DNA of 64,000 nt from positions 62,001 to 126,000 of the IMG/VR virus record IMGVR_UViG_3300019458_000021; one strand, given 5' to 3'. This DNA comes from a virus. The translations under genes were made by a program, and so were the position numbers. A model generated the notes under the pieces. That model worked only from the letters and a program-made list of their open reading frames with translations, did no database searches and was not told the origin of the DNA. Each line of letters begins with the position of its first letter. Position 1 is the first letter of the stretch. This document shows positions 2,545 through 42,538 of the stretch, in pieces.

Positions 2545-3330
2545 ATGAAGATAGCAATATGCCTCGCCGTGATGCTTATGATTCTTTCATCGTTCATCAC
2601 TGCACCTTGCACGGCTCAGATGAACTACGAAGGAGCTGTTACCGTTTCAAGAAACGGCAAGTCCTTCACATTTTCAAGCATCGCGGTTCAAAATCTAAAA
2701 GTGTTGCGAGAAGTTGCAGTGGATATGGGCGCAGACGTTCACATTCCAACTCTTCAAGCAATCATGATGACTGAAACACATGCAGGAACCGGTGGGTCAA
2801 TTGGATTGCCGCGCGCGCACCCAACTCGTAGATCATACGGTTGGATGCAGTTAACGATTCCAACAGCAAGAGTGCTGTTCCGAGACCTCGCCGACTTGCG
2901 GATGAAGTATTTTGGCGAGCGGGTTCTGAAATCTGTGAAAGACGCAGAAATCAAGAAACTGCTTCTAACAGACTGTCGGCTCAACGTCCGTCTTGGGATT
3001 CTGTTGTACGTTCAATATCTCGATATGGTCAAGAAGGAATGGGCGCGAGCTGTTGCTGGATATAACATGGGTATCGGCAATGCCTTGAAGCGAGCTCACG
3101 CGCCAAAGAGCGTTTATGTTGTCAAGGTTCGGAACTGGATACCTTTGGTAACTGCAATGACTGAAGAGGTTACGAAAGCGGAACAAATTGTTCTGGTTGC
3201 CTATTCGTCAACCTTGCCGGAAAATTGGCTGGGCATAAAAGGTACTTTACAAGGAGAACAAGATGGCCAAAAAGAGCAAAAAGCAGCCGAAACCTTCACA
3301 AGAGCAGAGTGTTACAAAAGTTGTCAATGA
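2545..3330 (+). CDS. secreted SLT-type lytic transglycosylase
   Basis: 261 residues. An N-terminal signal peptide ends near PCTAQ, so the product is probably exported. The SLT domain follows: MMTET with catalytic Glu77, then SYGWMQLTIPTA (the GLMQ-like motif), then LNVRLGILLYVQYL and AVAGYNMG, in the family order. It would cleave peptidoglycan glycan strands in the periplasm. A very strong AAAGGAGG site precedes the ATG. The last 68 nt overlap the next gene in another frame, so the final 22 residues may be shadow sequence or the result of a lost upstream stop. Confidence 0.85.
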   Translation: MKIAICLAVMLMILSSFITAPCTAQMNYEGAVTVSRNGKSFTFSSIAVQNLKVLREVAVDMGADVHIPTLQAIMMTETHAGTGGSIGLPRAHPTRRSYGWMQLTIPTARVLFRDLADLRMKYFGERVLKSVKDAEIKKLLLTDCRLNVRLGILLYVQYLDMVKKEWARAVAGYNMGIGNALKRAHAPKSVYVVKVRNWIPLVTAMTEEVTKAEQIVLVAYSSTLPENWLGIKGTLQGEQDGQKEQKAAETFTRAECYKSCQ

Positions 3331-8861: not shown

Positions 8862-9827
8862 ATGAAGTGGTATGAACTGCTCATGATTGCAGTTTTAGGC
8901 GTGTTCCTTAACACGAACGGGTACGCCTTCGAAACCGAGGCTGTGCAAGAGGTGGAAATTTCGACGGTCGTGCAACCTCCACATCTTGAAAGGATCACCG
9001 TTGAGACGCAGGTCGTTCCTTTCAAGATCAATGCCAAATACGCACTTGTAATCGATCAAACAACAGGCGAAATCCTTTACGCAAAGGGCGCGGACACAAT
9101 TGTCCCAATTGCTTCAATCACCAAGCTGATGACTGCTGTTGTGACGCTTGATGCTAGTCTCGATCTTGAAGAAACGATCCAAATCTCACAGGAGGAAGTT
9201 AATGCGACAATGCTTCGCGGTCGGGTAACAAGCAAATCGTTGCCGATGGGTGCGACATTGTCCCGCGCTGAGCTTCTCCATGTTACGTTGATGAATTCTC
9301 AGAACCGTGCAGCCGTGGCACTGGCTCGAACCTACCCAGGCGGTACAGAAGCGTTCGTTGCCGCTATGAACCGCAAAGCTGAGATGCTCGGGATGAAAGA
9401 TACCAACTTCACAGATCCAGCTGGCCTGTACAATACAAACGTGTCCTCAGCAATTGATTTAGTAATCCTCCTCAGACATGCTGAGGATTATGTTTTGATT
9501 CGTGACTTCAGCACATCAGAATCGTTTGCGCTATCGATGTACTCAAAAAAGAAAAGGCGTCCACACCTTGTGAAGTTCGGAACAACAAACCGACTTGTTC
9601 GCAACGATAGCTGGGATATCGTTGTTCAAAAGACTGGTTATATTCGCGATGCTGGTCACTGCGTTGCCATGACGGCAAGAACTGTCACAAACACCATTTC
9701 GATCATCCTGTTGAACACAACGAACAACACTGCGCGCGCCAATGATGCGATTCGAATCAAACACTACATCGAGACAGGTGAAATTCTTCAACCAATGAAG
9801 GCAAAACGCAAAAAACGTCGAGCATGA
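8862..9827 (+). CDS. secreted S11-family D,D-peptidase (PBP7/PbpG-like)
   Basis: 321 residues. An N-terminal signal peptide (about residues 1-23) directs export to the periplasm. All three penicilloyl serine transferase motifs are present: SITK (Ser85, Lys88), SQN (146-148) and KTG (257-259). Surrounding text such as MNRKAEMLGMKDTNFTDPAGLYNTN matches low-molecular-mass PBPs of the PBP7/PbpG endopeptidase type, which cut D-Ala-meso-DAP crosslinks. The C terminus is Lys/Arg-rich and lacks a clear membrane anchor. The gene sits between DNA polymerase and the clamp, not in a lysis cassette, which suggests early expression. Its role during infection is unknown. Confidence 0.88.
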   Translation: MKWYELLMIAVLGVFLNTNGYAFETEAVQEVEISTVVQPPHLERITVETQVVPFKINAKYALVIDQTTGEILYAKGADTIVPIASITKLMTAVVTLDASLDLEETIQISQEEVNATMLRGRVTSKSLPMGATLSRAELLHVTLMNSQNRAAVALARTYPGGTEAFVAAMNRKAEMLGMKDTNFTDPAGLYNTNVSSAIDLVILLRHAEDYVLIRDFSTSESFALSMYSKKKRRPHLVKFGTTNRLVRNDSWDIVVQKTGYIRDAGHCVAMTARTVTNTISIILLNTTNNTARANDAIRIKHYIETGEILQPMKAKRKKRRA

Positions 9828-30491: not shown

Positions 30492-33400
30492 TTAACCGTT
30501 TAAGCGCAAATTGATTGCATTATATGCAGGGACAATCAAGACGTCATCAACCGTAATGTCTGAGTAGAAAATCTCGTCCTCACGCGCGACCACCTCGAAC
30601 ATATCACCAAACTGGTTTTGCTCGAACAACGGGACGAGAACAACAGAACTGATGTCAACTGGTAATGCAGAGTGAATAGCAGCTGCCAATTCTGTGAAGA
30701 AGAATGTTTCACCGAACTCCCACGAAGTAATGTCGAAGAAGTTTCGAACCGTCGCAACAATCGTTGTTTTGATTTCATTGTCTGTGAGTAGCGCATTTTC
30801 CGACTTGATCACCTTCAACTGTGCTTGCAGCTGTGGAATTGCGTTTGAACCAAATAACAGCTTGAGGCGGCCAGGACGCAAAACGACGGTATCAGAAATC
30901 ATTGCATTGTCCAGCAAGTAGTTGTACGACGTGCGTAAATCAAGTGGGGTGGGTAATGGGGGTAACGACAACTCATTCTCGAGCGCCCGCTTCAGTTCTG
31001 TGAAGTAACCTTTTGTAATGATCATCATGTCGATGATGTTGCTTGCAGCCGGATCAACTAAGTGGTATCGTGGCGAACGATGGAACCAGGCAAAATTGAA
31101 GTCATCACGACCATTGTTTCGCTTCCACAAGTCTGTTGCAGCTAATTGGTCTTCAATGTAAGACGTAATCGTCTCAAACGACGTTGGAGCCGGTACATAC
31201 GGATCTGCCAACGTCAGACGCGAAAAGTATACGTAGTCCTTCACAGAAATCGTTACTTCTGTGTTTCCGCCCATGTTCAACACAAGCACAGTATCAACAA
31301 TCTGATTGGCGACAAGAGATCCTTCTTGCCAATCAACGGGCGTCGCAAGAGGAATGATGTTGCCACTTACCGTCACGTCACTTTGACCTGTGATGTAGAG
31401 AATTGGAACCGTCACTGTTGTTCCTGAAGCTGTTGCAGTTGAACTGCCAACGGTCGGTGTCTCCAGGGACAGGAAATTTGTTAACGATGAAAACAACGGC
31501 GGTGCACCATCAACGATGCTTACGGTCGATAGTGCGCCAAACGTGTTGCTCATTATGACAAGAGATCCGTCAATGATCGCCGCATATCCGTTACCGAGTA
31601 AATCGGCATTGATGTCAGTGATCAGGTTTGTATACAGGTACGTTACAGGTGTCACCACTGTAACGCTCACTGGATGCGGAACACCATCCAGTGTGATGGT
31701 GGCATTGTACGTGCCCGCTAGTGCAAAAGGCTGTCCTGTGTCAGAAATATCAATTGTAAACGTGACTTCTTGTTGGCCAGTAACTAACGTGATCAACGGA
31801 TTGATTATGTCGTTTAACATCGGATTGTCTGGTACTCGGTCACCGTTCTCATCTGCTGAGATTACGTTGAGCTTGTTAATGTCTGGCAGGCCCAGTTCCG
31901 TGCCCGAATCGATTGTTTCTTGACTCAGAACATTGAAGTTCCAGTTCTGAGTCATCAGGCCGTCACGATTGTTGTTCGCATTGGCCTGCAGAATCACAAT
32001 TTGATCATCATCTGAATTCAATGTGTCGTACTCAATCACTGACAAACCGTCGTTAGAATTCCAGAACTCGGTTGTAACACTCTGAACTATCGTACGTCGA
32101 GCATTCCGCGAAACATCGTAGATTGTTTCAAACACACTTAGCTGTTCAACGGTTATCAGCGCGTAAGTGATGAAGTCGGCTGGGTAACCAACAGTTGCAA
32201 GACCGTCAACAAAGAATGGCGGTGTACCAACGTTGGCGGGATTTGCGCTCTGCTTAACACTGTACCATTCGTTCGTTGCTGTGTTGTAATACATTTCAAA
32301 TGCAGCTGGCGCTGGAGGAGGAGCTAAGGCTGCGTTGATTCGATCGATCTCATCTTGATTGAATACTCGGCGAATGTTCGTGTTGTCAACACCATTGCTG
32401 ATCAATTGCAGATATACGTCTGTCGACGAAAGCAACGGTTCAATATACGTTGAGATCAACGTGCTTGCATCAACGACAGGTGTTGTGTTCGAGATTGTCT
32501 CATCTTCAAAGTACAGCAGTGCGTCATCACCAAACAGTTTAACGTTCTCATACGTACCGCTTGGGTCATGCCAAGTGATGTACTTACTGTCTCCGGCAAA
32601 TGTTCGGTTGAATGCTCGCAGCTTCAAAATCGAACTATCTTGCAACGGGAAGATGTTATAATCTTGTGCATTAACCATACGGTCTTGTGTGTAATAAACC
32701 GCTGGCGCAGTAACGCCAATGTGCTCGAGTTCTTCACTTGCAGATGCGTTCTGCAGTGTGTTGATCAAAGAAACTGTGAAAGTAAACGTCTGAACACGGC
32801 TGAGCGAATCAAGATATGTGAATGATAACGACTGGTTGACAATCGACGAACGAGGAATAACGATGTCTTCGTTCAAACTTGAACGAATCCAAATATCAAA
32901 CGTGCCTTTTGGAATGTCTGCGAATTCACCATCACCAAAAATCAGACGAATTTGATCGTTGACAAGCGTCTCAACTTCGTACTTGTTACGAGCGGGATTC
33001 GTGTTAAAAATCACGTTTTGAGCGTGCGCCAAGTCAACTAACTGCCACTCGCCCGACTTGATGTTTGTTGCTCGTTTGTAAGGCAATAATGCAGGCAAAT
33101 CCAATGTTACTGCTGTGTTAGGATCAATATTGTTCAACCAAACATCTGTCTCGTTAATGTTATTCGCATTGACAAGATAGATTTGATTTGGCGTAATTCC
33201 GTCAAATGTTGTGCGGAACCGTTGTATTGTACCTTGCTTGGTTAAACAGAAGAAACCTGTGGTGTCTGATTGATCACCAAGACCGTCAGTTCCGTACGTC
33301 AAGGTAAAGTTTGTGTTGTTCTGAGGACGTCGCTCAATCAGTCCTAATGCCGAGTCATGAGCGATTGGTACAAGTTCCATTGGTACTGATGTACCACTCA

Positions 33401-33998
33401 CTGTTGTCGAATATTGGAACACACCCAACGGCAGCGGCACGAGATTCACTTGGTAGAGTTCAAACACAACGTCTTGAATTTGGAATCGATCTGTAGGAAC
33501 AACCGATCCAAACGGTTGTTCAAGAACTCGGTTCATGATCAGAAGAAACTGCTGCTTCCAGTCAGGATTATTGACATCGTTCCATCGGATTGTCGTGTTT
33601 GCAAGGTTCGTACCACTGGAGTCGATCACAGGCTCGGTGGTCGTGATCGACTGAATCTTGACCAGGCCACGGGCTGGCAATGAACGATCTGCTTTGTAGG
33701 AAACCAACTTTGCCAAACGGAGAATGCTGTCACGACGTTGAGCTGTCGTGATGAAGTTTTCTTGTGCGTTTACATCGAGACGGTAAGCAATTTGCTCGGC
33801 AACATATGCAAAAGACTCGATAACAGCAATGAATTCACTACTCTCAATAAAGTCGTTGAACGTCTCAGGGAAATACAGCTGAATGTATTCAATGAGACTC
33901 TGCTTGATTGTGTTGAAATCAAACGCAGCAAAGTTGACGTTCTGGAACGCTGTGTAAACACGCTCAAACGATTCTGCTCGTGAAACTAGACGGCTCAT
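30492..33998 (-). CDS. 6: baseplate wedge protein gp6
   Basis: 1168 residues, much longer than T4 gp6 (660). The N terminus follows the gp6/J-like pattern: FDFNTIKQSLIEYIQLYFPETFNDFIESSEFIAVIESFAYVAEQIAYRLDVNAQENF, then TAQRRDSILRLAKLVSY (quoted in two parts in the protein). The middle (about residues 700-860) contains an inserted beta unit, LAGTYNATITLDGVPHPV, related to units in other virion genes here. gp6 dimers form the inner ring of the baseplate wedge. The start overlaps the gp25 stop (ATGA). Confidence 0.85.
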   Translation of the reverse strand: MSRLVSRAESFERVYTAFQNVNFAAFDFNTIKQSLIEYIQLYFPETFNDFIESSEFIAVIESFAYVAEQIAYRLDVNAQENFITTAQRRDSILRLAKLVSYKADRSLPARGLVKIQSITTTEPVIDSSGTNLANTTIRWNDVNNPDWKQQFLLIMNRVLEQPFGSVVPTDRFQIQDVVFELYQVNLVPLPLGVFQYSTTVSGTSVPMELVPIAHDSALGLIERRPQNNTNFTLTYGTDGLGDQSDTTGFFCLTKQGTIQRFRTTFDGITPNQIYLVNANNINETDVWLNNIDPNTAVTLDLPALLPYKRATNIKSGEWQLVDLAHAQNVIFNTNPARNKYEVETLVNDQIRLIFGDGEFADIPKGTFDIWIRSSLNEDIVIPRSSIVNQSLSFTYLDSLSRVQTFTFTVSLINTLQNASASEELEHIGVTAPAVYYTQDRMVNAQDYNIFPLQDSSILKLRAFNRTFAGDSKYITWHDPSGTYENVKLFGDDALLYFEDETISNTTPVVDASTLISTYIEPLLSSTDVYLQLISNGVDNTNIRRVFNQDEIDRINAALAPPPAPAAFEMYYNTATNEWYSVKQSANPANVGTPPFFVDGLATVGYPADFITYALITVEQLSVFETIYDVSRNARRTIVQSVTTEFWNSNDGLSVIEYDTLNSDDDQIVILQANANNNRDGLMTQNWNFNVLSQETIDSGTELGLPDINKLNVISADENGDRVPDNPMLNDIINPLITLVTGQQEVTFTIDISDTGQPFALAGTYNATITLDGVPHPVSVTVVTPVTYLYTNLITDINADLLGNGYAAIIDGSLVIMSNTFGALSTVSIVDGAPPLFSSLTNFLSLETPTVGSSTATASGTTVTVPILYITGQSDVTVSGNIIPLATPVDWQEGSLVANQIVDTVLVLNMGGNTEVTISVKDYVYFSRLTLADPYVPAPTSFETITSYIEDQLAATDLWKRNNGRDDFNFAWFHRSPRYHLVDPAASNIIDMMIITKGYFTELKRALENELSLPPLPTPLDLRTSYNYLLDNAMISDTVVLRPGRLKLLFGSNAIPQLQAQLKVIKSENALLTDNEIKTTIVATVRNFFDITSWEFGETFFFTELAAAIHSALPVDISSVVLVPLFEQNQFGDMFEVVAREDEIFYSDITVDDVLIVPAYNAINLRLNG

Positions 33999-34381
33999 TG
34001 GGACGCGCCTTCAAAGATGATGTTCAAGTTCAGATTGTCGATTAAGTTCAGTTCGATGTACAGTAATCGAGCAGAAGCAACAACTGTGTTTCGGTCTTCA
34101 TCAGGTACGATTTCCAGCTGCAGAAGCTCAACACGAGGATCAAAGTTGATCACCGTTTCAAGGTCTTCTCGCAAAATCCCAATTGTTATTTCGTCCAACG
34201 GCTCAAACGCCAAGTCTGGGATTCTTGTACCGAATGTAGGCATCATTACACGCTCTCCTCTACGTGTAAAGATGTGATTGAGTAAGTCCATCTTTACGAG
34301 TTCGAGATCTGTTAACGAGAATGTCTTGTTCTTCTCGTACTCGAACGAGGAATACCCTTTGTAAAGTCCTGATGCCATCAT
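33995..34381 (-). CDS. 25: baseplate wedge protein gp25
   Basis: 128 residues, like T4 gp25 (132). The conserved core is present: SLTDLELVKMDLLNHIFTRRGERVMMPTFGTRIPDL. The EPR-like motif seen in contractile systems is replaced here by text around FEPLDE. gp25 clamps the gp6-gp7 wedge and starts sheath polymerisation. Two adjacent ATGs are possible starts (34381, 34378). A late promoter motif lies just upstream and the stop overlaps gp6. Confidence 0.9.
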   Translation of the reverse strand: MMASGLYKGYSSFEYEKNKTFSLTDLELVKMDLLNHIFTRRGERVMMPTFGTRIPDLAFEPLDEITIGILREDLETVINFDPRVELLQLEIVPDEDRNTVVASARLLYIELNLIDNLNLNIIFEGASQ

Positions 34382-34410: not shown

Positions 34411-35838
34411 TTATCTTCGCCAAAACTTACCGCGCGGAATCGTCTTACCACGTTCAGAACGTCCTACCTGTGTGCTTGTATAAGGAAACTCCGGATCATG
34501 TGTAAAGTCATTCTTGGTCATTGTTCGTGCCCACGGTTCGTGCGCTGGAACACGACTTGTCCACATCGCATTCTGTGAATTGGCCGTTGTTGCAACAGCA
34601 GCACTTGGACCATTGTGATGAATTGTTGGTGCTGTTTCAATGATAGCCGCACCTGCATTTTGGTGTGTAGTTCCACCGGACGTTAACTTCAGATCGGAAC
34701 CCGAACGAACATTGATCTCTTCGAGCGTATCCATGTACATGCTCTTTGATGCCCGCATCCGAATATTTTCAAGCGTTTTCACGTTGATGTCTTTCTTTGC
34801 CTGCATCCGAATTTCGCCATCGGAATACATGTGAATTCCATTCTTCGCAAACATTCGAATCGAGTCATCGCTTGTGAAGTTTATTCCTTGCTTTGCATGG
34901 ACATTGACTTTGTTGTCGGTGTAGATGTCGATGTTTCCTTCCTGATCCATCTCAATCCAGTTCTTGCCTTTGGCTGTTGCGATGTAAACACGCTCGTTTG
35001 TATCATCCATCAAAATTTGATGTCCGGAAGTGGTACGGAATCGAACTCGGCAGTTCTTTTGACTGTCGTCCATTGCAATCGCATGGAACCCAGGCGTCGT
35101 CCATGCATATGTTTCTGAATCGAGATTGCCTTCTCCAAACAACCCCTCATAATCAGGGTCCTGGCGACTAATCTGGTAACCTTGAGAGGTCGTCCACCCA
35201 TCAAACGTTACATCCTTGTCGTCAGGCACATTACTTGTTGATGTTGGCAAAGCAGAAACGTCAATTGCACTCACTGCGTTGTCTGCAACGCGTGTTCGCC
35301 ACTCAAAATTTGGCTCACTCTTTGGAAATGCCTCTCGCATGTTAACGTTAAGTGGTTCAATGTACTTTTCATCAGATGTATACGGGCCAAAAGGACGACG
35401 GTTATCAGATTTTTGCAGAGCAGGATGATCTTCATACATGAATCGACCATGCGGCATTGTGTGCGGACGGAACTGATCATAGATTCCACCAACACACACG
35501 CGCAGGTTTGGATCACCGTCAATGAACATTACGACAACTTGGGCGCCTACCTTAGGCCGCGCCCAAAATCCATAACCAACGGCACCGTCAGATGTCGTAT
35601 CGCCAGGACCGCGCGCACCGACAGTCGTGCTACCAGCAAACGGTGATACGTAAACTGCCCACGGCAAGTCTTCGATTTTCATCCGCATGTTTTCGCCAAG
35701 CGTCGCACAAACGACACGAATTCGTCCCATTTGCTGCGGGTCGTTTGTGTCAACCACCGTGCCAATTGTTACAACACCATCGAATGATGAGCGAGGTGCT
35801 GCTTCGCTTTGGTATGTGTCTAGTTGTCTTGTTCTCAT
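34411..35838 (-). CDS. 5: central spike protein gp5-like, without lysozyme domain
   Basis: 475 residues. An N-terminal OB-fold (about 20-130: GVVTIGTVVDTNDPQQMGRI to GAQVVVMFIDGDPNLRVCVGG) is followed by a central part. Then a beta-helix needle of regular short repeats runs from about 300 to 400 (RMFAKNGIHMYSDGEIRMQAKKD and similar). T4 gp5 (575) carries a lysozyme domain between the OB-fold and needle; none is seen here. The muralytic activity appears to be on the neighbouring hub protein instead. The start overlaps the hub stop. Confidence 0.88.
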   Translation of the reverse strand: MRTRQLDTYQSEAAPRSSFDGVVTIGTVVDTNDPQQMGRIRVVCATLGENMRMKIEDLPWAVYVSPFAGSTTVGARGPGDTTSDGAVGYGFWARPKVGAQVVVMFIDGDPNLRVCVGGIYDQFRPHTMPHGRFMYEDHPALQKSDNRRPFGPYTSDEKYIEPLNVNMREAFPKSEPNFEWRTRVADNAVSAIDVSALPTSTSNVPDDKDVTFDGWTTSQGYQISRQDPDYEGLFGEGNLDSETYAWTTPGFHAIAMDDSQKNCRVRFRTTSGHQILMDDTNERVYIATAKGKNWIEMDQEGNIDIYTDNKVNVHAKQGINFTSDDSIRMFAKNGIHMYSDGEIRMQAKKDINVKTLENIRMRASKSMYMDTLEEINVRSGSDLKLTSGGTTHQNAGAAIIETAPTIHHNGPSAAVATTANSQNAMWTSRVPAHEPWARTMTKNDFTHDPEFPYTSTQVGRSERGKTIPRGKFWRR

Positions 35839-38741
35839 GAGATTGTCTCGATATTCACGCCACCGAACGATTCATACGTCTTGATGAATCGTTGCATGCT
35901 AACTTGTCTTTGACCTGGCGCATACGCTCCTGGTAAAGATGCCCATTGTGACTTTAACTTGTTTACGGCCGTAACAATCCGACCTGCTTTAATGTCGTTA
36001 AACGCATTGAAGTTTTTGAAGATTTGTTCGCACGCTTGATCTTGGCTGTCTGCACCAAAATCTGTCAAACCAAGCTGCGCTTTGATTGCGTTCCAAGTCG
36101 TTAGAACGATCTGATATCCACCAGCAGCACTTGATGGAAGAACAACCTTCTTGTTTGTGGTATCTTGCGTACCTCTCAAAGTGTCGATAAATGCCCTTGT
36201 TAGACCTTCAATCTTAGACACAATCTTTGCTGCTGTCACACGGAAGTTGTCACTGACAACAAGCTGTGGAGTTACTCCAGCAGCTGGATGATCATCGAGC
36301 GATGAACATTCTGTTCCCGGATTAACGATCTTCCGATAGTTGATTGTTCCTTCTTTGGTCAATGTGCCTTCACCTTTTGCAATCGCGTGGCGGAACGCAT
36401 AGAGATTCTTTTGCTCTTGGTCGTTGGTTGGCAGCTGTGGTGCTTCGTCTTGAACAATAACAGGTGTTGGATTTACAACCGTCGAACGTTGTACCTGATC
36501 AGTAGGTGGTGATTCAGGTTGGCCAGTACCACATGGTGCCTTCAACATTTGTTGAGCTTTTTCTTGCGGACATTCAAGCTGCGCTGTTAGACTGTCGTTT
36601 GCTGTCCTTGTGTCTGGTTGACCATCAGCAGACGGTTTCGGCTGCTGACAAGGAACTGTTGAACCAAAACAGTCGACAATTTGTTCTGTGAACGCAACAG
36701 CAGAACGTCGCTTATCGTTCAAGAACGCAAATGTTCCTGGGTCTGGCAGAGCAATCATATTGAGCGTTTGGTTAAACTCTCCCTGCGTAAATTCATGATT
36801 GATTGCATAGATGTAGTAATAGCCTTGAAACCAGAAGTTCGCAGCATAGTTTGAACGATCGCGAAACGCTTGTAGGTCGTCTTGATCGGCAGGCATTTTG
36901 ATGTTAAGCTTTGCAAGCATTGGAAAGTCCCCCATAGACATACCACGAATCTCTCCTTGAGATTCCGCCGGGGCTGACGGCTGCGCAGAGCAAACGTCTA
37001 CATTTCCTGATTTGTCACGAACAACCGCATCAAGAAATCTGAATACCGAATCTGGATTCGACATCTCACTAGCTGTGTGGAGAAATGCCGTATTACCACG
37101 AATCTTAACAGTTGCTTCAGCAACTTCAAGACTAGCATGTTTTGCCATCGTGTAGTTCGCACCAATGTTTTCTCCCGGATACATAGTGTTAAGTCCACGA
37201 CGTTGCGCCTGCGCACCAAAATATAGCGGAATCTTCAACGGCTGACCTGGATTCTGACGATTCTTTTCAGCATTTGGATTGATGTGTGTTGAACTACTGG
37301 GTGCCGCTTCGAGTTGCTGTTTGAACGAGTTAGCAGAAGTTGCTGTCTGCATATACCCCATTCCAAGATTCAACTTCAGATCAAACTCCAGAATATCGGT
37401 GTTTAGTCCGGTGTAAATGTAATCGAAGATTGTCAAATTGTCACTGATCACTTTATCGTTGAACACGCGTTCGTTTTCCGACTTCCCACCAACGAGTTCC
37501 GCAACAAGACCCGCCTTTGGTGACACAAACTGCTTGATCGTATAAACAATTTGGACTTTGTTCTCAAGGGCCCGAAGAGCAGTTTGCACCTTGTATTCGT
37601 ACTTGATCACACTACCCTTACCATCTTTCACGCCGGCCATTTCTTCGAGAATCTGGGGACTGAGTTGCATGACACCACGAATCGCACTTTCAATACTACC
37701 GCCAATGGTTTGCTTAACGTAAGCCTTACCTTTTTCACAATCAACCGTGTCGCGGTACTGTTGAGGGCGATCGGTCACTAGATAACGCTCGTTACAGTAC
37801 ACAGGATCAAGAAGAATAATGTACTCAACCGGTAGATAGTCCGAAACTGTGTTGACAAAGTTCGTACCATCGAGAAGGTGAAGCTTCTGCTCAAAGCAAT
37901 TCTTGTATTCAGTGTATCGATCATTGATATAGATCTGAAGCTGTTGCATTGCATCACGCAACGATGGACCAACCTGCAAAGCAAAACCATCAGCAGCACG
38001 AGAATATTGCGGCAGACGTGTCGCACCATTTGCAAGGCCTACAAATGACAAATCATACGTGCCACCTTGTTCGGTGTAAACACCGGTTAGATCATACGGA
38101 ATGAACATCAACGGACGAACATCAGCGATTGTTTGTGCGATGTCCTGTCTCGTGTTTGGATCGACAGCATATCCAACGAAGAATGGTTTCAACATCCACG
38201 TGACCATTGACGCATCAACGCCCAATGCCTGACAGCATCGAATTACCTGATCAACAAACAGAATGCCACGTGGTTCGGAAACCTTAATGTTGCCTTCAAC
38301 AGCAATAGACGTTCCTGCATCACCGGGAACAGCTTCGCCGGCTGTTACTGACATCCATGTCACGTCTGTAATTGCAAATGCAGCATCTGTAGCTCCAAAG
38401 ATTAGTACGCAGTAATCGTTACTCGTATTGCCGCCATCCAAAGCGCGAGGAGCGTATTGTTCAAGACCTTCAACGTTCCAAAGCTGTGCTTCTTTTGGCC
38501 CTGTTGGATGTTGCCAAGCTGTAACATTTGTTTGTTGAGCGAGCGTTTCTGCAATCTCTGTTGTTCGACAAAGAACCAGTGAGAAAAAATAGCTGTAAGA
38601 GCGCATTTCCGACAAACGGTTGATGTCTACCGCTCGACGGCCTAGAACGCCCTCAGGATGGTCGAATTCCGAAACAGGCGTCCTTTGACGAGGATCCTGC
38701 AGCGGCGCTTCGTTGTCGAACTGTCCGATATTGTCTGGCAT
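35835..38741 (-). CDS. baseplate hub protein with C-terminal lambda-R-type transglycosylase (GH104) domain
   Basis: 968 residues. The first ~690 form the hub part, with text such as YYYIYAINHEFTQGEFNQTLNMIALPD that resembles gp27/VgrG-like hubs. A Pro/Gln-rich linker (about 700-775) follows. The last ~190 residues match phage lambda endolysin R: LYAFRHAIAKGEGT (candidate catalytic Glu791), DDHPAAG, SSAAGGYQIVLTTWNAIKAQLGL, SQDQACEQIF, QWASLPGA. It would puncture peptidoglycan during injection. It is stop-start coupled to gp53 and gp5 genes. The transglycosylase call is strong; the gp27 equivalence is inferred. Confidence 0.85.
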   Translation of the reverse strand: MPDNIGQFDNEAPLQDPRQRTPVSEFDHPEGVLGRRAVDINRLSEMRSYSYFFSLVLCRTTEIAETLAQQTNVTAWQHPTGPKEAQLWNVEGLEQYAPRALDGGNTSNDYCVLIFGATDAAFAITDVTWMSVTAGEAVPGDAGTSIAVEGNIKVSEPRGILFVDQVIRCCQALGVDASMVTWMLKPFFVGYAVDPNTRQDIAQTIADVRPLMFIPYDLTGVYTEQGGTYDLSFVGLANGATRLPQYSRAADGFALQVGPSLRDAMQQLQIYINDRYTEYKNCFEQKLHLLDGTNFVNTVSDYLPVEYIILLDPVYCNERYLVTDRPQQYRDTVDCEKGKAYVKQTIGGSIESAIRGVMQLSPQILEEMAGVKDGKGSVIKYEYKVQTALRALENKVQIVYTIKQFVSPKAGLVAELVGGKSENERVFNDKVISDNLTIFDYIYTGLNTDILEFDLKLNLGMGYMQTATSANSFKQQLEAAPSSSTHINPNAEKNRQNPGQPLKIPLYFGAQAQRRGLNTMYPGENIGANYTMAKHASLEVAEATVKIRGNTAFLHTASEMSNPDSVFRFLDAVVRDKSGNVDVCSAQPSAPAESQGEIRGMSMGDFPMLAKLNIKMPADQDDLQAFRDRSNYAANFWFQGYYYIYAINHEFTQGEFNQTLNMIALPDPGTFAFLNDKRRSAVAFTEQIVDCFGSTVPCQQPKPSADGQPDTRTANDSLTAQLECPQEKAQQMLKAPCGTGQPESPPTDQVQRSTVVNPTPVIVQDEAPQLPTNDQEQKNLYAFRHAIAKGEGTLTKEGTINYRKIVNPGTECSSLDDHPAAGVTPQLVVSDNFRVTAAKIVSKIEGLTRAFIDTLRGTQDTTNKKVVLPSSAAGGYQIVLTTWNAIKAQLGLTDFGADSQDQACEQIFKNFNAFNDIKAGRIVTAVNKLKSQWASLPGAYAPGQRQVSMQRFIKTYESFGGVNIETIS

Positions 38742-39073
38742 TAGGCACCCGATACAACCAATGGTTTCGTCAAGAACTCAGTCTGAACACGTTCACGAGT
38801 TGGAAGAAGGATTTCTTTCCCTTCAGCGAATTCGAGATTTATGTCGACGATGTTGTTATAAAGCAAGATCACCCATGCAAGTGTTGCTTTACCATACACA
38901 TCGTATGCCAATAAGTCGGGACGAACAGCGTATCGCGGTGTAATTGTCAGTTTGATATCTGTCACAGAAGGTGCGTAGATTCGACGTTCCCACCATCCCA
39001 ATCGATCACGGAGCTGTTCTACTGTTCCACCCTGTACGTATCTTCCGTCACGTGTTTGATCTGATCTTGCCAT
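38741..39073 (-). CDS. 53: baseplate wedge protein gp53-like
   Basis: 110 residues, shorter than T4 gp53 (196). The key segment YDVYGKATLAWVILLYNNIVDINLEFAEGKEILLPTRERV has the gp53/LysM-like pattern (YG...W.I...N.I.D, then G..I.LP). It starts at ATG 39073 after AAGGA and has a late promoter motif at 39111-39116, inside the 3' end of the preceding gene. The stop overlaps the hub start (TAATG). Confidence 0.8.
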   Translation of the reverse strand: MARSDQTRDGRYVQGGTVEQLRDRLGWWERRIYAPSVTDIKLTITPRYAVRPDLLAYDVYGKATLAWVILLYNNIVDINLEFAEGKEILLPTRERVQTEFLTKPLVVSGA

Positions 39074-39942: not shown

Positions 39943-41817
39943 ATGAATAACAAGAAGAAATCGACCAAGAAGGCTAGTGAGAAGCTGTCTTACTACCAGC
40001 GAAAAAAACTAGAACGTCTAAAAGAAGAACGAAGAGCTCTTCGTGAACAACGTAAGAAACAAAAAGAGAAAGAAGCGAAGAACCCTAAAATCGCAAAGCG
40101 CAAAAAATCAAAGAAACAGGGTCCTGACAAAGCCAAAGTCAAGCGCTCTCCTGTTACCAAGCCGAAAAAACAACCTCGTGTTAAAGCAGTTGAGATTCTG
40201 CCTCAACTCGTTGTAGTTGACCTTCCAGAATTGGAGGAAGAGAAACCCATCTACAATCCAACCGCCGCAAGTGCTCTTGCAGGTAAGAATATCTATCTGA
40301 ACAACAGGGACTTGCTTGCTGCTGTCAAAGACAGCAAGAAGAGGGGAGAGATGTCAGATAAGTTGGCTCGAATGCTACAGTTGCTTTGTGCCAAGTATGC
40401 AAAGAAAGGCAACTTTATCAACTACTGTGTTGATAGTGCCACACTAGCACTAACAAAAAGTGGTTGGAAAACACATCAACAAATGACAACGGACGATGAG
40501 ATTCTTTCGTATAACCTGGAAACACAACAGCTGGTATGGTCAAAAGTTCTTGAAGTGTTTCGAAATAACTACTCAAGTACGATGCACAAACTAGCAACAC
40601 AAGGACTCGATGCTCTAGTAACACCAAATCATAAGTTTGTTTCCATAGAACGTGGTTTGATTCCCGTTGAAGACATCATCTGCAATGAACACATCGTTTT
40701 AATGGGACAACCGGTGGCAGATGGTAGTATTATCTATCCCGATGATGTTGTGGAGCTTGTAGGATGGTGTGTTACTGAAGGACACTACAGCACTAAATCT
40801 AAAAAGCGACACTCGATACAGATTTCCCAAAAACAAGGAGCCAAAGCTAACCGAATCCGTGAACTGTTACAGTCACTTGCTATTCCCCATAAGGAATATC
40901 TGAACAAACAGGGGATTATTCTCTTTAACTGTACAGGCGTCTGGATATCAAAAATACATCAAACAATTGCTCCGTCTCGTGTACCTGCATGCGAATTTCT
41001 TTTAGACCTTATTCAAACACAACGACTGTTACTTATCAAAACTATGGTGGCTGGAGATGGATGGATGCGACCATCAGGAGGGATGTCATACGTGCAAAAG
41101 TCCCCCGAACATATTGACGCATTCCTAATGCTCTGTACATTGGCAGGTCAGACTGTTTCTGTCACACCAATGACATACAAAACACCTACCAGTCGAAAAA
41201 ATCCCAATGGCGGTGTTAGCGATGTACTCAGCGTGAACATTTATAGTGAACCTAAAACAACATGTCGTGCGGAGTGGATTGACTTTCATGGTGGAAAGCA
41301 AACAGCTGGCGGTCGCAGGAACGACAAACCGAACCTACCCACCGAGCAATACACCGGACAGATATGGTGCCCACGGACTGAGTATGGAACTTTTGTCGCT
41401 CGTCGTGGCAAGTATATCTACATCACAGGGAATACGTACAATGACGACATGCAAGGGTATGCAATGATGATGCTTGTTCGGACGTGGAACAGTTTCGATC
41501 CTGAACGTAGCGAGAACGCATTTGCATTCTATACACAGTGTATCAAGAGTTCGTTCATTCAATATCTCAACCAAGAGAAACGACAACGAACAATTCGTGA
41601 TATGATGCTTGTCGATCAAGGTCTCAATCCTTCTTTCAGTTATGAAGGTGAGGGCAGTGATCAACATATTCTTGAGGATGAACAGGACTTTTATGCGCAG
41701 AAACGTGCAGCTGATCTGTTAACACGACTTCCTAGAGAATACGAAGAGGGTTCGACAGATGTTGACAGAACCCCCTCGGAACCAGATAATGTTGAGTCTA
41801 ACAATACTGCCAGATAA
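39943..41817 (+). CDS. 55: late transcription sigma factor gp55, interrupted by an intein
   Basis: 624 residues as encoded; removal of the intein (162-497) leaves 288. Extein text fits T4 gp55 (185): YLNNRDLLAAVKDSKKRGEMSDKLARML before the intein and NDDMQGYAMMMLVRTWNSFDPER, then NAFAFYTQCIKSSFIQYLNQEKRQ after it. A Lys/Arg-rich extension of about 85 residues precedes the sigma core and has no counterpart in T4. gp55 directs host RNA polymerase to TATAAATA late promoters with gp33 and the gp45 clamp. The ATG follows AAGGAAGG. Confidence 0.9.
   Translation: MNNKKKSTKKASEKLSYYQRKKLERLKEERRALREQRKKQKEKEAKNPKIAKRKKSKKQGPDKAKVKRSPVTKPKKQPRVKAVEILPQLVVVDLPELEEEKPIYNPTAASALAGKNIYLNNRDLLAAVKDSKKRGEMSDKLARMLQLLCAKYAKKGNFINYCVDSATLALTKSGWKTHQQMTTDDEILSYNLETQQLVWSKVLEVFRNNYSSTMHKLATQGLDALVTPNHKFVSIERGLIPVEDIICNEHIVLMGQPVADGSIIYPDDVVELVGWCVTEGHYSTKSKKRHSIQISQKQGAKANRIRELLQSLAIPHKEYLNKQGIILFNCTGVWISKIHQTIAPSRVPACEFLLDLIQTQRLLLIKTMVAGDGWMRPSGGMSYVQKSPEHIDAFLMLCTLAGQTVSVTPMTYKTPTSRKNPNGGVSDVLSVNIYSEPKTTCRAEWIDFHGGKQTAGGRRNDKPNLPTEQYTGQIWCPRTEYGTFVARRGKYIYITGNTYNDDMQGYAMMMLVRTWNSFDPERSENAFAFYTQCIKSSFIQYLNQEKRQRTIRDMMLVDQGLNPSFSYEGEGSDQHILEDEQDFYAQKRAADLLTRLPREYEEGSTDVDRTPSEPDNVESNNTAR
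40426..41433 (+). mobile_element. intein with LAGLIDADG-type homing endonuclease inside gp55
   Basis: 336 residues (162-497 of the precursor). It begins at Cys162 (CVDSATLALTKSGWKTHQQM, splicing block A), has block B TPNHKF with His230, and ends ITGN with Asn497 followed by Thr498 as +1 nucleophile. The penultimate residue is Gly rather than the usual His. Two dodecapeptide-like endonuclease motifs are present: VELVGWCVTEGHY (Glu279) and LIKTMVAGDGWM (Asp372). Homing into intein-free gp55 alleles is predicted. The host gene stays in frame on both sides. Confidence 0.92.
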
Positions 41818-42538
41818 AACCGCCAGCGGTTTTTGATTTACCACGACAACATTCACTAATGTTATGTAACATTACACCTGTTGCATGTTGTGCGGCTGTT
41901 AGTGATCGAAACGTTCTAATTAGAATACCATCAAGTGATAATTGCCGAACTGTGCGAAAATATTTCTTTGAGAAAATCGGAGGCGAAGATCCATAATAAC
42001 ACCATAAAAAACCACCCGCCGATCTTCTCTTTCCCTTGCAACACTGACTGATGTACGAGGCGTTTGCTTTCGTCACTTCACTTGCCAATTTGCATGACGA
42101 GAAACTTGCAAGCAACTTTCCGTCAAGCGAATATTGCGAAACTGGTTTCTCTATGATCGGCAAATATCCACGTTTTCCTTTCATCTTCGTACTTAGGATT
42201 TTGCGTCGAACATTAGTCCACGCGGTAGAGTTTCCTTCACCACCTTCAGTCAGATTACATAGAATACCGGTGTGATTTATCAATCGCCCGTAGTAACTTA
42301 TCAGTTCTTTCTCTTTTTGAAAAGCCTCCGCTTCACTTACATTAATTAAAACTTTTTCGTATACAGGCTTCTTTCCTCGTTGATAGAGCTTACATAACTT
42401 ATTTTTCAACAAAGGATTTGTCAATCGACTTCGCACACGATTATGCTCGTACATACGCGTTCCTGAACCTTTACCTACGTAGAAAGGTTGTCGCGAATCC
42501 GGATCTATAATACAATACGTGTAGAAATTTCTATTCAT
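41798..42538 (-). CDS. GIY-YIG homing endonuclease with NUMOD-type repeats
   Basis: 246 residues. The N-terminal nuclease has FYTYCIIDPDSRQPFYVGKGSGTRMYEH (the GIY-YIG variant YTY...YVGKG with Arg28) and a later Glu in EAFQKEKELISYYG. Two C-terminal NUMOD1-like DNA-binding repeats follow: VSQYSLDGKLLASFSS to AGGFLWCYY, and VRQLSLDGILIRTFRS to AGGFIWQYC. It is a free-standing mobile endonuclease lying opposite and 20 nt overlapping the 3' end of gp55. The ribosome binding site is weak. Confidence 0.88.
   Translation of the reverse strand: MNRNFYTYCIIDPDSRQPFYVGKGSGTRMYEHNRVRSRLTNPLLKNKLCKLYQRGKKPVYEKVLINVSEAEAFQKEKELISYYGRLINHTGILCNLTEGGEGNSTAWTNVRRKILSTKMKGKRGYLPIIEKPVSQYSLDGKLLASFSSCKLASEVTKANASYISQCCKGKRRSAGGFLWCYYGSSPPIFSKKYFRTVRQLSLDGILIRTFRSLTAAQHATGVMLHNISECCRGKSKTAGGFIWQYC
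41816..41833 (+). terminator. probable terminator after gp55
   Basis: Stem AAAACCG/CGGTTTT with loop CCAG and a run of T, starting in the gp55 stop codon; it overlaps the 3' end of the convergent GIY-YIG gene. Confidence 0.5.

Follow-up and report, generated by a model that had tools for sequence, protein, structure and literature searches.

A GH104 (lambda-R-type) domain at the end of a gp27-type baseplate hub protein, and the exchange of wall enzymes on the hub tails of related phages

A 64,000-nucleotide stretch of a metagenome-derived, 237-kb virus record (IMG/VR IMGVR_UViG_3300019458_000021, bases 62001-126000; hereafter, the window) was analyzed. On its minus strand, a single uninterrupted reading frame encodes a baseplate hub protein of the gp27 type, the last part of which is a GH104 domain of the lambda R type. 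The features of the hub gene are as follows.

35835-38741 (-): baseplate hub protein (gp27 type) with a C-terminal GH104 domain, 968 residues (phmmer, PHROGs and predicted fold)
36732-38621 (-): gp27-like hub core, residues 41-670 (core hidden Markov model [HMM] and predicted fold)
36531-36671 (-): four-cysteine tail, residues 691-737 (Cys691, 698, 724 and 737)
36423-36530 (-): linker rich in Pro, Gln, Thr and Ser, residues 738-773 (53% P+Q+T+S)
35838-36422 (-): GH104 (lambda R type) putative lytic transglycosylase domain, residues ~774-968 (sequence and predicted fold)
36369-36371 (-): codon of Glu791, the counterpart of the catalytic Glu19 of lambda R (alignment)
36135-36284 (-): lower lip of the GH104 domain, enlarged to 50 residues (820-869)

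In phmmer searches against the PDB, the full-length hub protein matched lambda lysozyme (1am7/3d3d) at 1e-10, with the runner-up at 0.037, and the GH104 domain alone matched 1am7 at 5.5e-12. In PHROGs, phrog_90 (endolysin) matched across hub residues 777-962 at 2.1e-21. A Pfam search of the hub protein found nothing, and the GH104 assignment therefore rests on phmmer, PHROGs and the fold. This silence is not counter-evidence, because Pfam was likewise silent on the GH104 parts of proteins from three related contigs (L082, L090 and L110). Residues 745-968 were modeled with AlphaFold (mean predicted local distance difference test score [pLDDT], 79.6), and the GH104 domain of the model matched lambda lysozyme 3d3d with a VIA Z of 20.6 and a root mean square deviation of 2.7 over 147 residues at 33% identity. 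Glu19 is the catalytic residue of lambda lysozyme, a lytic transglycosylase (PMC6916166). Glu791 was aligned with this residue and was invariant in 11 of 11 and in 30 of 30 aligned sequences, and the other invariant positions of the GH104 alignments were all kept in the window domain, which may accordingly be expected, from its sequence, to act as a lytic transglycosylase. These results bear out the first-pass annotation of this DNA, which had recognized a lambda-R-type domain from the motifs KGEGT (residues 789-793), SSAAGGYQIV (870-879), SQDQA and QWASLPGA, all of which are present in the reading frame at the places given. In lambda, the lower lip of the active site is formed by 11 residues; the corresponding segment in the window has 50. 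The idea that it is a unique insertion was dropped since the segment is common to a related hub (L018), and a wider, pattern-based count of its length gave artefacts; no claim of rarity is made. A composition profile showed no foreign-looking step in GC content at the GH104 domain, and no notable repeats were seen at the domain borders.

When residues 1-680 of the hub were modeled (mean pLDDT 69.5), the fold matched T4 gp27 (1k28_D) at Z 11.8 over 262 residues. Matches were also obtained to the hubs of the Anabaena extracellular contractile injection system (Z 14.2), cyanophage A-1(L) (8kea_A, Z 14.0) and the diffocin hub-hydrolase (8v3w_H, Z 12.9); the fold also resembles VgrG and Tal hubs, and many hub chains scored at Z 10-14. 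Every one of the 52 hub sequences in the collection, among them the hubs of RaK2, CBB, RAS14, XacN1, Phosso and PA5oct, was matched by the hub-core HMM; it is thus the core that has been inherited vertically. RaK2 and CBB, both jumbo phages, have the gene order of the window, gp53-hub-gp5-gp25-gp6, and PA5oct, RAS14 and XacN1 have a closely similar one. By fold and synteny, the carrier is a gp27-type baseplate hub adjoining gp5, as had been proposed. By sequence and models, a gp27-like domain and a fused peptidoglycan hydrolase domain lie in a single chain, the arrangement of hub-hydrolases and Tal-type proteins. Homologous hubs have been seen in particles: PA5oct gp349 and gp350 carry electrospray ionization tandem mass spectrometry notes, and phAPEC6 gp240 and gp241 were detected by mass spectrometry (PMC7247149), gp240 being taken for the hub by size and place. 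By analogy, the hub would be present in the particle of the window phage.

The neighboring baseplate genes are listed below.

34411-35838 (-): gp5-type OB-fold and needle protein without enzyme domain, 475 residues (Pfam)
38741-39073 (-): gp53-type baseplate wedge subunit (PF11246, 1.9e-5)
33995-34381 (-): gp25-type baseplate wedge subunit (PF04965, 2.8e-10)
30492-33998 (-): gp6-type baseplate wedge subunit (phrog_10646, 8e-270)

The gp5 gene overlaps the hub gene by 4 bases. Its product matched Phage_base_V (3.2e-13) and DUF2345 (1.2e-6) in Pfam and no enzyme domain, which agrees with the earlier description of an OB-fold and needle lacking a lysozyme domain. T4 shares the hub and needle architecture in gp27 and gp5, but its GH24 lysozyme is located inside gp5, unlike in the window; no match to PF00959 was found anywhere in the record. 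The window gp5 has a conserved C-terminal motif, RVPxHEPW...RG..WRR, and the gp5 proteins of relatives end after the needle in a P.HEPW...RG..WRR-type motif. Some relatives have an extra open reading frame (ORF) between gp5 and gp25 (L009, 8491-9657; L010, 11851-12687; L011, 11670-12509), which the window lacks; in XacN1, the ORF at this place encodes an M23 peptidase. A very long stretch of Phosso gp5 (L012, 8974-12108, 1044 residues) is rich in Gly, and the protein shows a lysozyme-like motif, SEGT...GVGRY, with no Pfam enzyme match.

A profile scan of viral contigs gave 46 loci, ~40 of them non-redundant by sequence, which are labeled with L numbers. GH104 was found on the hub tail in the window and in L017-L019, and SLT/GH23 in L024, L027-L031, L033, L034, L036, L060 and L061. 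The SLT hubs were called by Pfam, PHROGs or, for the remainder, motif and close kinship, L034 being slightly below the Pfam cut-off. Further hubs bear SLT domains without the catalytic Glu, which is replaced by Gln in L026 and by Leu (near residue 770) in L022/L023. An M15-type peptidase was found on the hub of L020/L021 (PF08291 at 2.4e-4, slightly below the cut-off; phrog_894 at 6.7e-15), and the hubs of L049 and L037 were M15-type and SLT-like, respectively, by motif only; several SLT calls and both weak M15 calls are thus motif or sub-threshold matches. Phage_lysozyme2 (L056, 2.3e-35) and Glucosaminidase (L057, 4.1e-17) were also found on hub tails, and ~21 hubs of the scanned set carried no enzyme there. 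Among the gp5 proteins adjoining these hubs, Pfam detected an enzyme family in 0 of 38; Pfam has no GH104 model that responds here, and none of the 38 is long enough for a GH104 domain past the needle and the conserved end. RaK2, CBB, RAS14 and XacN1 share with the window a homologous hub, an OB-needle gp5 and the same or a closely similar gene order, but their hub tails have just 5-31 residues, and gp5 carries the enzyme instead (M23+GH24 in RaK2 and CBB, SLT_3 in RAS14 and XacN1). No enzyme was detectable on the hub or gp5 of PA5oct. In L082, L090 and L110, it is gp5 that ends in GH104, and this gp5 lies immediately downstream of a homologous hub. These results indicate that the hub tail in the lineage of the window is an exchangeable enzyme slot, at which several wall-cutting families were swapped among relatives.

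In a hub-core tree, built by a quick method and having several long branches, the window and L018, both with GH104, were sisters. They were joined next by L020 (M15; branch value 98) and then by L023 (degenerate SLT; 99), and this group was nested in a clade of 16, the rest of which consists of SLT hubs and two hubs without enzyme. L020/L021 are ~60% identical to the window across the hub core; L021 and L016 bear the same metagenome number. Because the window sits among SLT-bearing hubs with enzyme-free gp5 proteins, the visible change is an enzyme swap on the hub, and GH104 probably replaced another hub-borne enzyme. The first-pass annotation had described the enzyme as moved from gp5, with a change of both enzyme family and carrier compared with T4. 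The presence of GH104 on the hub holds, but the tree lends no support to the move. T4 was also the wrong yardstick, since the nearer phages differ among themselves in bearing M23+GH24, SLT_3 or no enzyme on gp5. An exchange on the hub, rather than a move from gp5, is the simplest reading, although change counts cannot give direction; when the exchange took place, from what source and in which direction is proposed here from sequence comparison.

The hub tails of the clade of 16 have a characteristic set of cysteines. The tail opens with a Cys 17-24 residues past the core in 15 of the 16 hubs, and a second Cys follows 7-9 residues further on in 11; outgroup hub tails are without these Cys, except for isolated ones in L040, L052 and L058. 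In the SLT hubs, the second Cys pair is located past the enzyme, so that SLT lies between the pairs. The hubs of the window, L018 and L020 have the complete set of four Cys ahead of the enzyme, with GH104 or M15 behind them, and L032 and L025 have four Cys and no enzyme. The second and third Cys are absent together in L026, L029, L030 and L037, and the third is present in 11 of the 11 hubs having the second. The survival of a lone Cys pair is more in keeping with nested disulfides than with a metal site; an inner Cys698-Cys724 and an outer Cys691-Cys737 bond are predicted. The covariation is complete, but it comprises only three independent changes, too few for a sign test to become significant (p 0.25). 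It is conceivable, at somewhat short of an even chance, that the C-terminal tail of this clade is a dedicated enzyme port, formed by the four-Cys tail with probably nested disulfides and offering two insertion points (one within the loop for SLT, one behind it for GH104 or M15). Such a port would let phages alter their wall-cutting chemistry with the hub and needle unchanged.

Hub-borne wall enzymes as such are already known from other phages. In the hub gp15 of A-1(L), activity was shown for the endoglucanase and peptidase domains, and a lambda-fold domain is also present (PMC10966104). Like the window protein, gp15 (PDB 8kea) is a gp27-family hub with wall-degrading domains, and residues 97-254 of its chain, of lambda-lysozyme fold, were matched by the window domain at Z 14.9. 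Unlike in the window, its lysozyme domain is N-terminal within the hub (residues 56-265) and is accompanied by the endoglucanase and a C-terminal peptidase domain, and A-1(L) is not a T4/RaK2-type jumbo phage. Diffocin CD1368 (PDB 8v3w; PMC10996793) is similar in that wall hydrolases are attached to the C-terminal side of a gp27-like hub through a flexible linker; however, these are an MltA-type transglycosylase and an NlpC/P60 endopeptidase, and diffocin is a bacteriocin with a Gram-positive target. The hub gp147 of Bacillus phage 0305phi8-36, a gp27 homologue, carries fused wall enzymes that have been exchanged, differing in the relative BtI1 (PMC2147016). It belongs to another lineage and, unlike the window hub, has an N-terminal transglycosylase, C-terminal NlpC and M23 domains and no GH104. 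The Tal proteins of the siphophages TP901-1, Tuc2009 and 80alpha (PMC7291167) likewise have a gp27-like domain at the N-terminus and a lysin extension at the C-terminus, but these phages have non-contractile tails and other enzymes. In open-access papers, an exchange of hub enzymes in RaK2/T4-type jumbo phages was not found described.

Taken as a whole, the locus is very likely explained by a hub-borne GH104 entry enzyme in an exchangeable slot. A hub trimer would sit at the tail-tube tip, holding the gp5 needle as gp27 does, and every subunit would have a flexible tail ending in a GH104 lytic transglycosylase. Upon sheath contraction and passage of the needle through the outer membrane, the tail-tethered enzymes would get to the periplasm and cut glycan strands locally, opening a passage for the tube. 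In the history of the lineage, an SLT domain would have been lost from the hub tail, and in the lineage of the window GH104, probably from a free phage endolysin, would have been added behind the four-Cys tail and the proline-rich linker. Several points weigh against this explanation. The lower lip is greatly enlarged and modeled with low confidence, the hub-core model is of only moderate confidence, and the tree carries the limits of its quick method and long branches. The window phage is known from sequence alone. Activity does not follow from a lambda-R fold on a hub, because the lambda-like domain of A-1(L) is not among the two reported active, and hub enzymes can decay, because the SLT domains of L023 and L026 lack the catalytic Glu.

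These last two points are also the grounds on which the GH104 domain might be regarded as catalytically dead or chiefly structural, a relic or plug, the replacement of Glu by Leu in L022/L023 and by Gln in L026 being the precedent for decay. This is unlikely in view of the retention of Glu791 and all other invariant GH104 positions in the window, and of GH104 itself in a second lineage at 56% identity (L018). A role in late lysis, with the domain doubling as an endolysin or being cut free to become one, was considered because phrog_90 (GH104) matched nothing but the hub in the 237-kb record, in which no GH24 or M23 was found. However, a separate 261-residue SLT-domain protein with a signal-like N-terminus (2545-3330, +) is a candidate lysis enzyme, the record may be incomplete, and SLT proteins are also present in G001, G002 and G003; we consider a lysis role quite improbable.

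As to the origin of the arrangement, a gp5-borne GH104 domain such as that of L082, L090 and L110 could have passed from the needle protein to the neighboring hub gene. The existence of such domains directly downstream of homologous hubs would permit this, and an approximately unbiased (AU) test did not reject hub and gp5 GH104 as a single clade (p = 0.216). On the other hand, the best GH104 tree separates hub from gp5 GH104 and places the two hub sequences on one long branch, no gp5 with a detected enzyme occurs in the window's own clade, and the nearest relatives of the window already bear other enzymes on the hub. A derivation from gp5-borne GH104 thus gained no support and is held to be doubtful at best. 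That the fusion is an artefact of assembly or gene calling would be thinkable for a metagenome-derived record, but the chance is negligible: the reading frame is open throughout, an identical fusion is present at 100% identity in a 193-kb record (L002/L016), and diverged contigs at 66-68% (L003-L005/L017-L019) contradict it.

The preferred reading, a swap of enzymes on the hub, means that contractile phages of the T4/RaK2 type are not bound to the gp5 needle as the carrier of their entry enzyme. Two neighboring carrier positions and several unrelated enzyme families have been interchanged among relatives, so that a link between host change and the type of wall chemistry (cutting of glycan or of peptide) becomes testable. 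Caution is also advised in labeling gp5 a tail lysozyme by homology alone, as the gp5 proteins of PA5oct and of the window type have no detectable enzyme.

A search for the host through gp5 relatives in bacterial genomes gave a single 3.2-kb contig in a Heimdallarchaeota metagenome-assembled genome, probably stray phage DNA. Elsewhere in this phage genome, a D-alanyl-D-alanine carboxypeptidase with a signal-like N-terminus (Peptidase_S11, 1.4e-53) is encoded at 8862-9827 (+). A gp55-type late sigma factor gene at 39943-41817 (+) is split by an intein with a LAGLIDADG-like domain, and L003 and L004 have an intein-like insert at the same gp55 site. Adjoining gp55 is a GIY-YIG/NUMOD homing-endonuclease-like ORF (41798-42538, -), the place of which is taken by a different ORF in L003 and L004.

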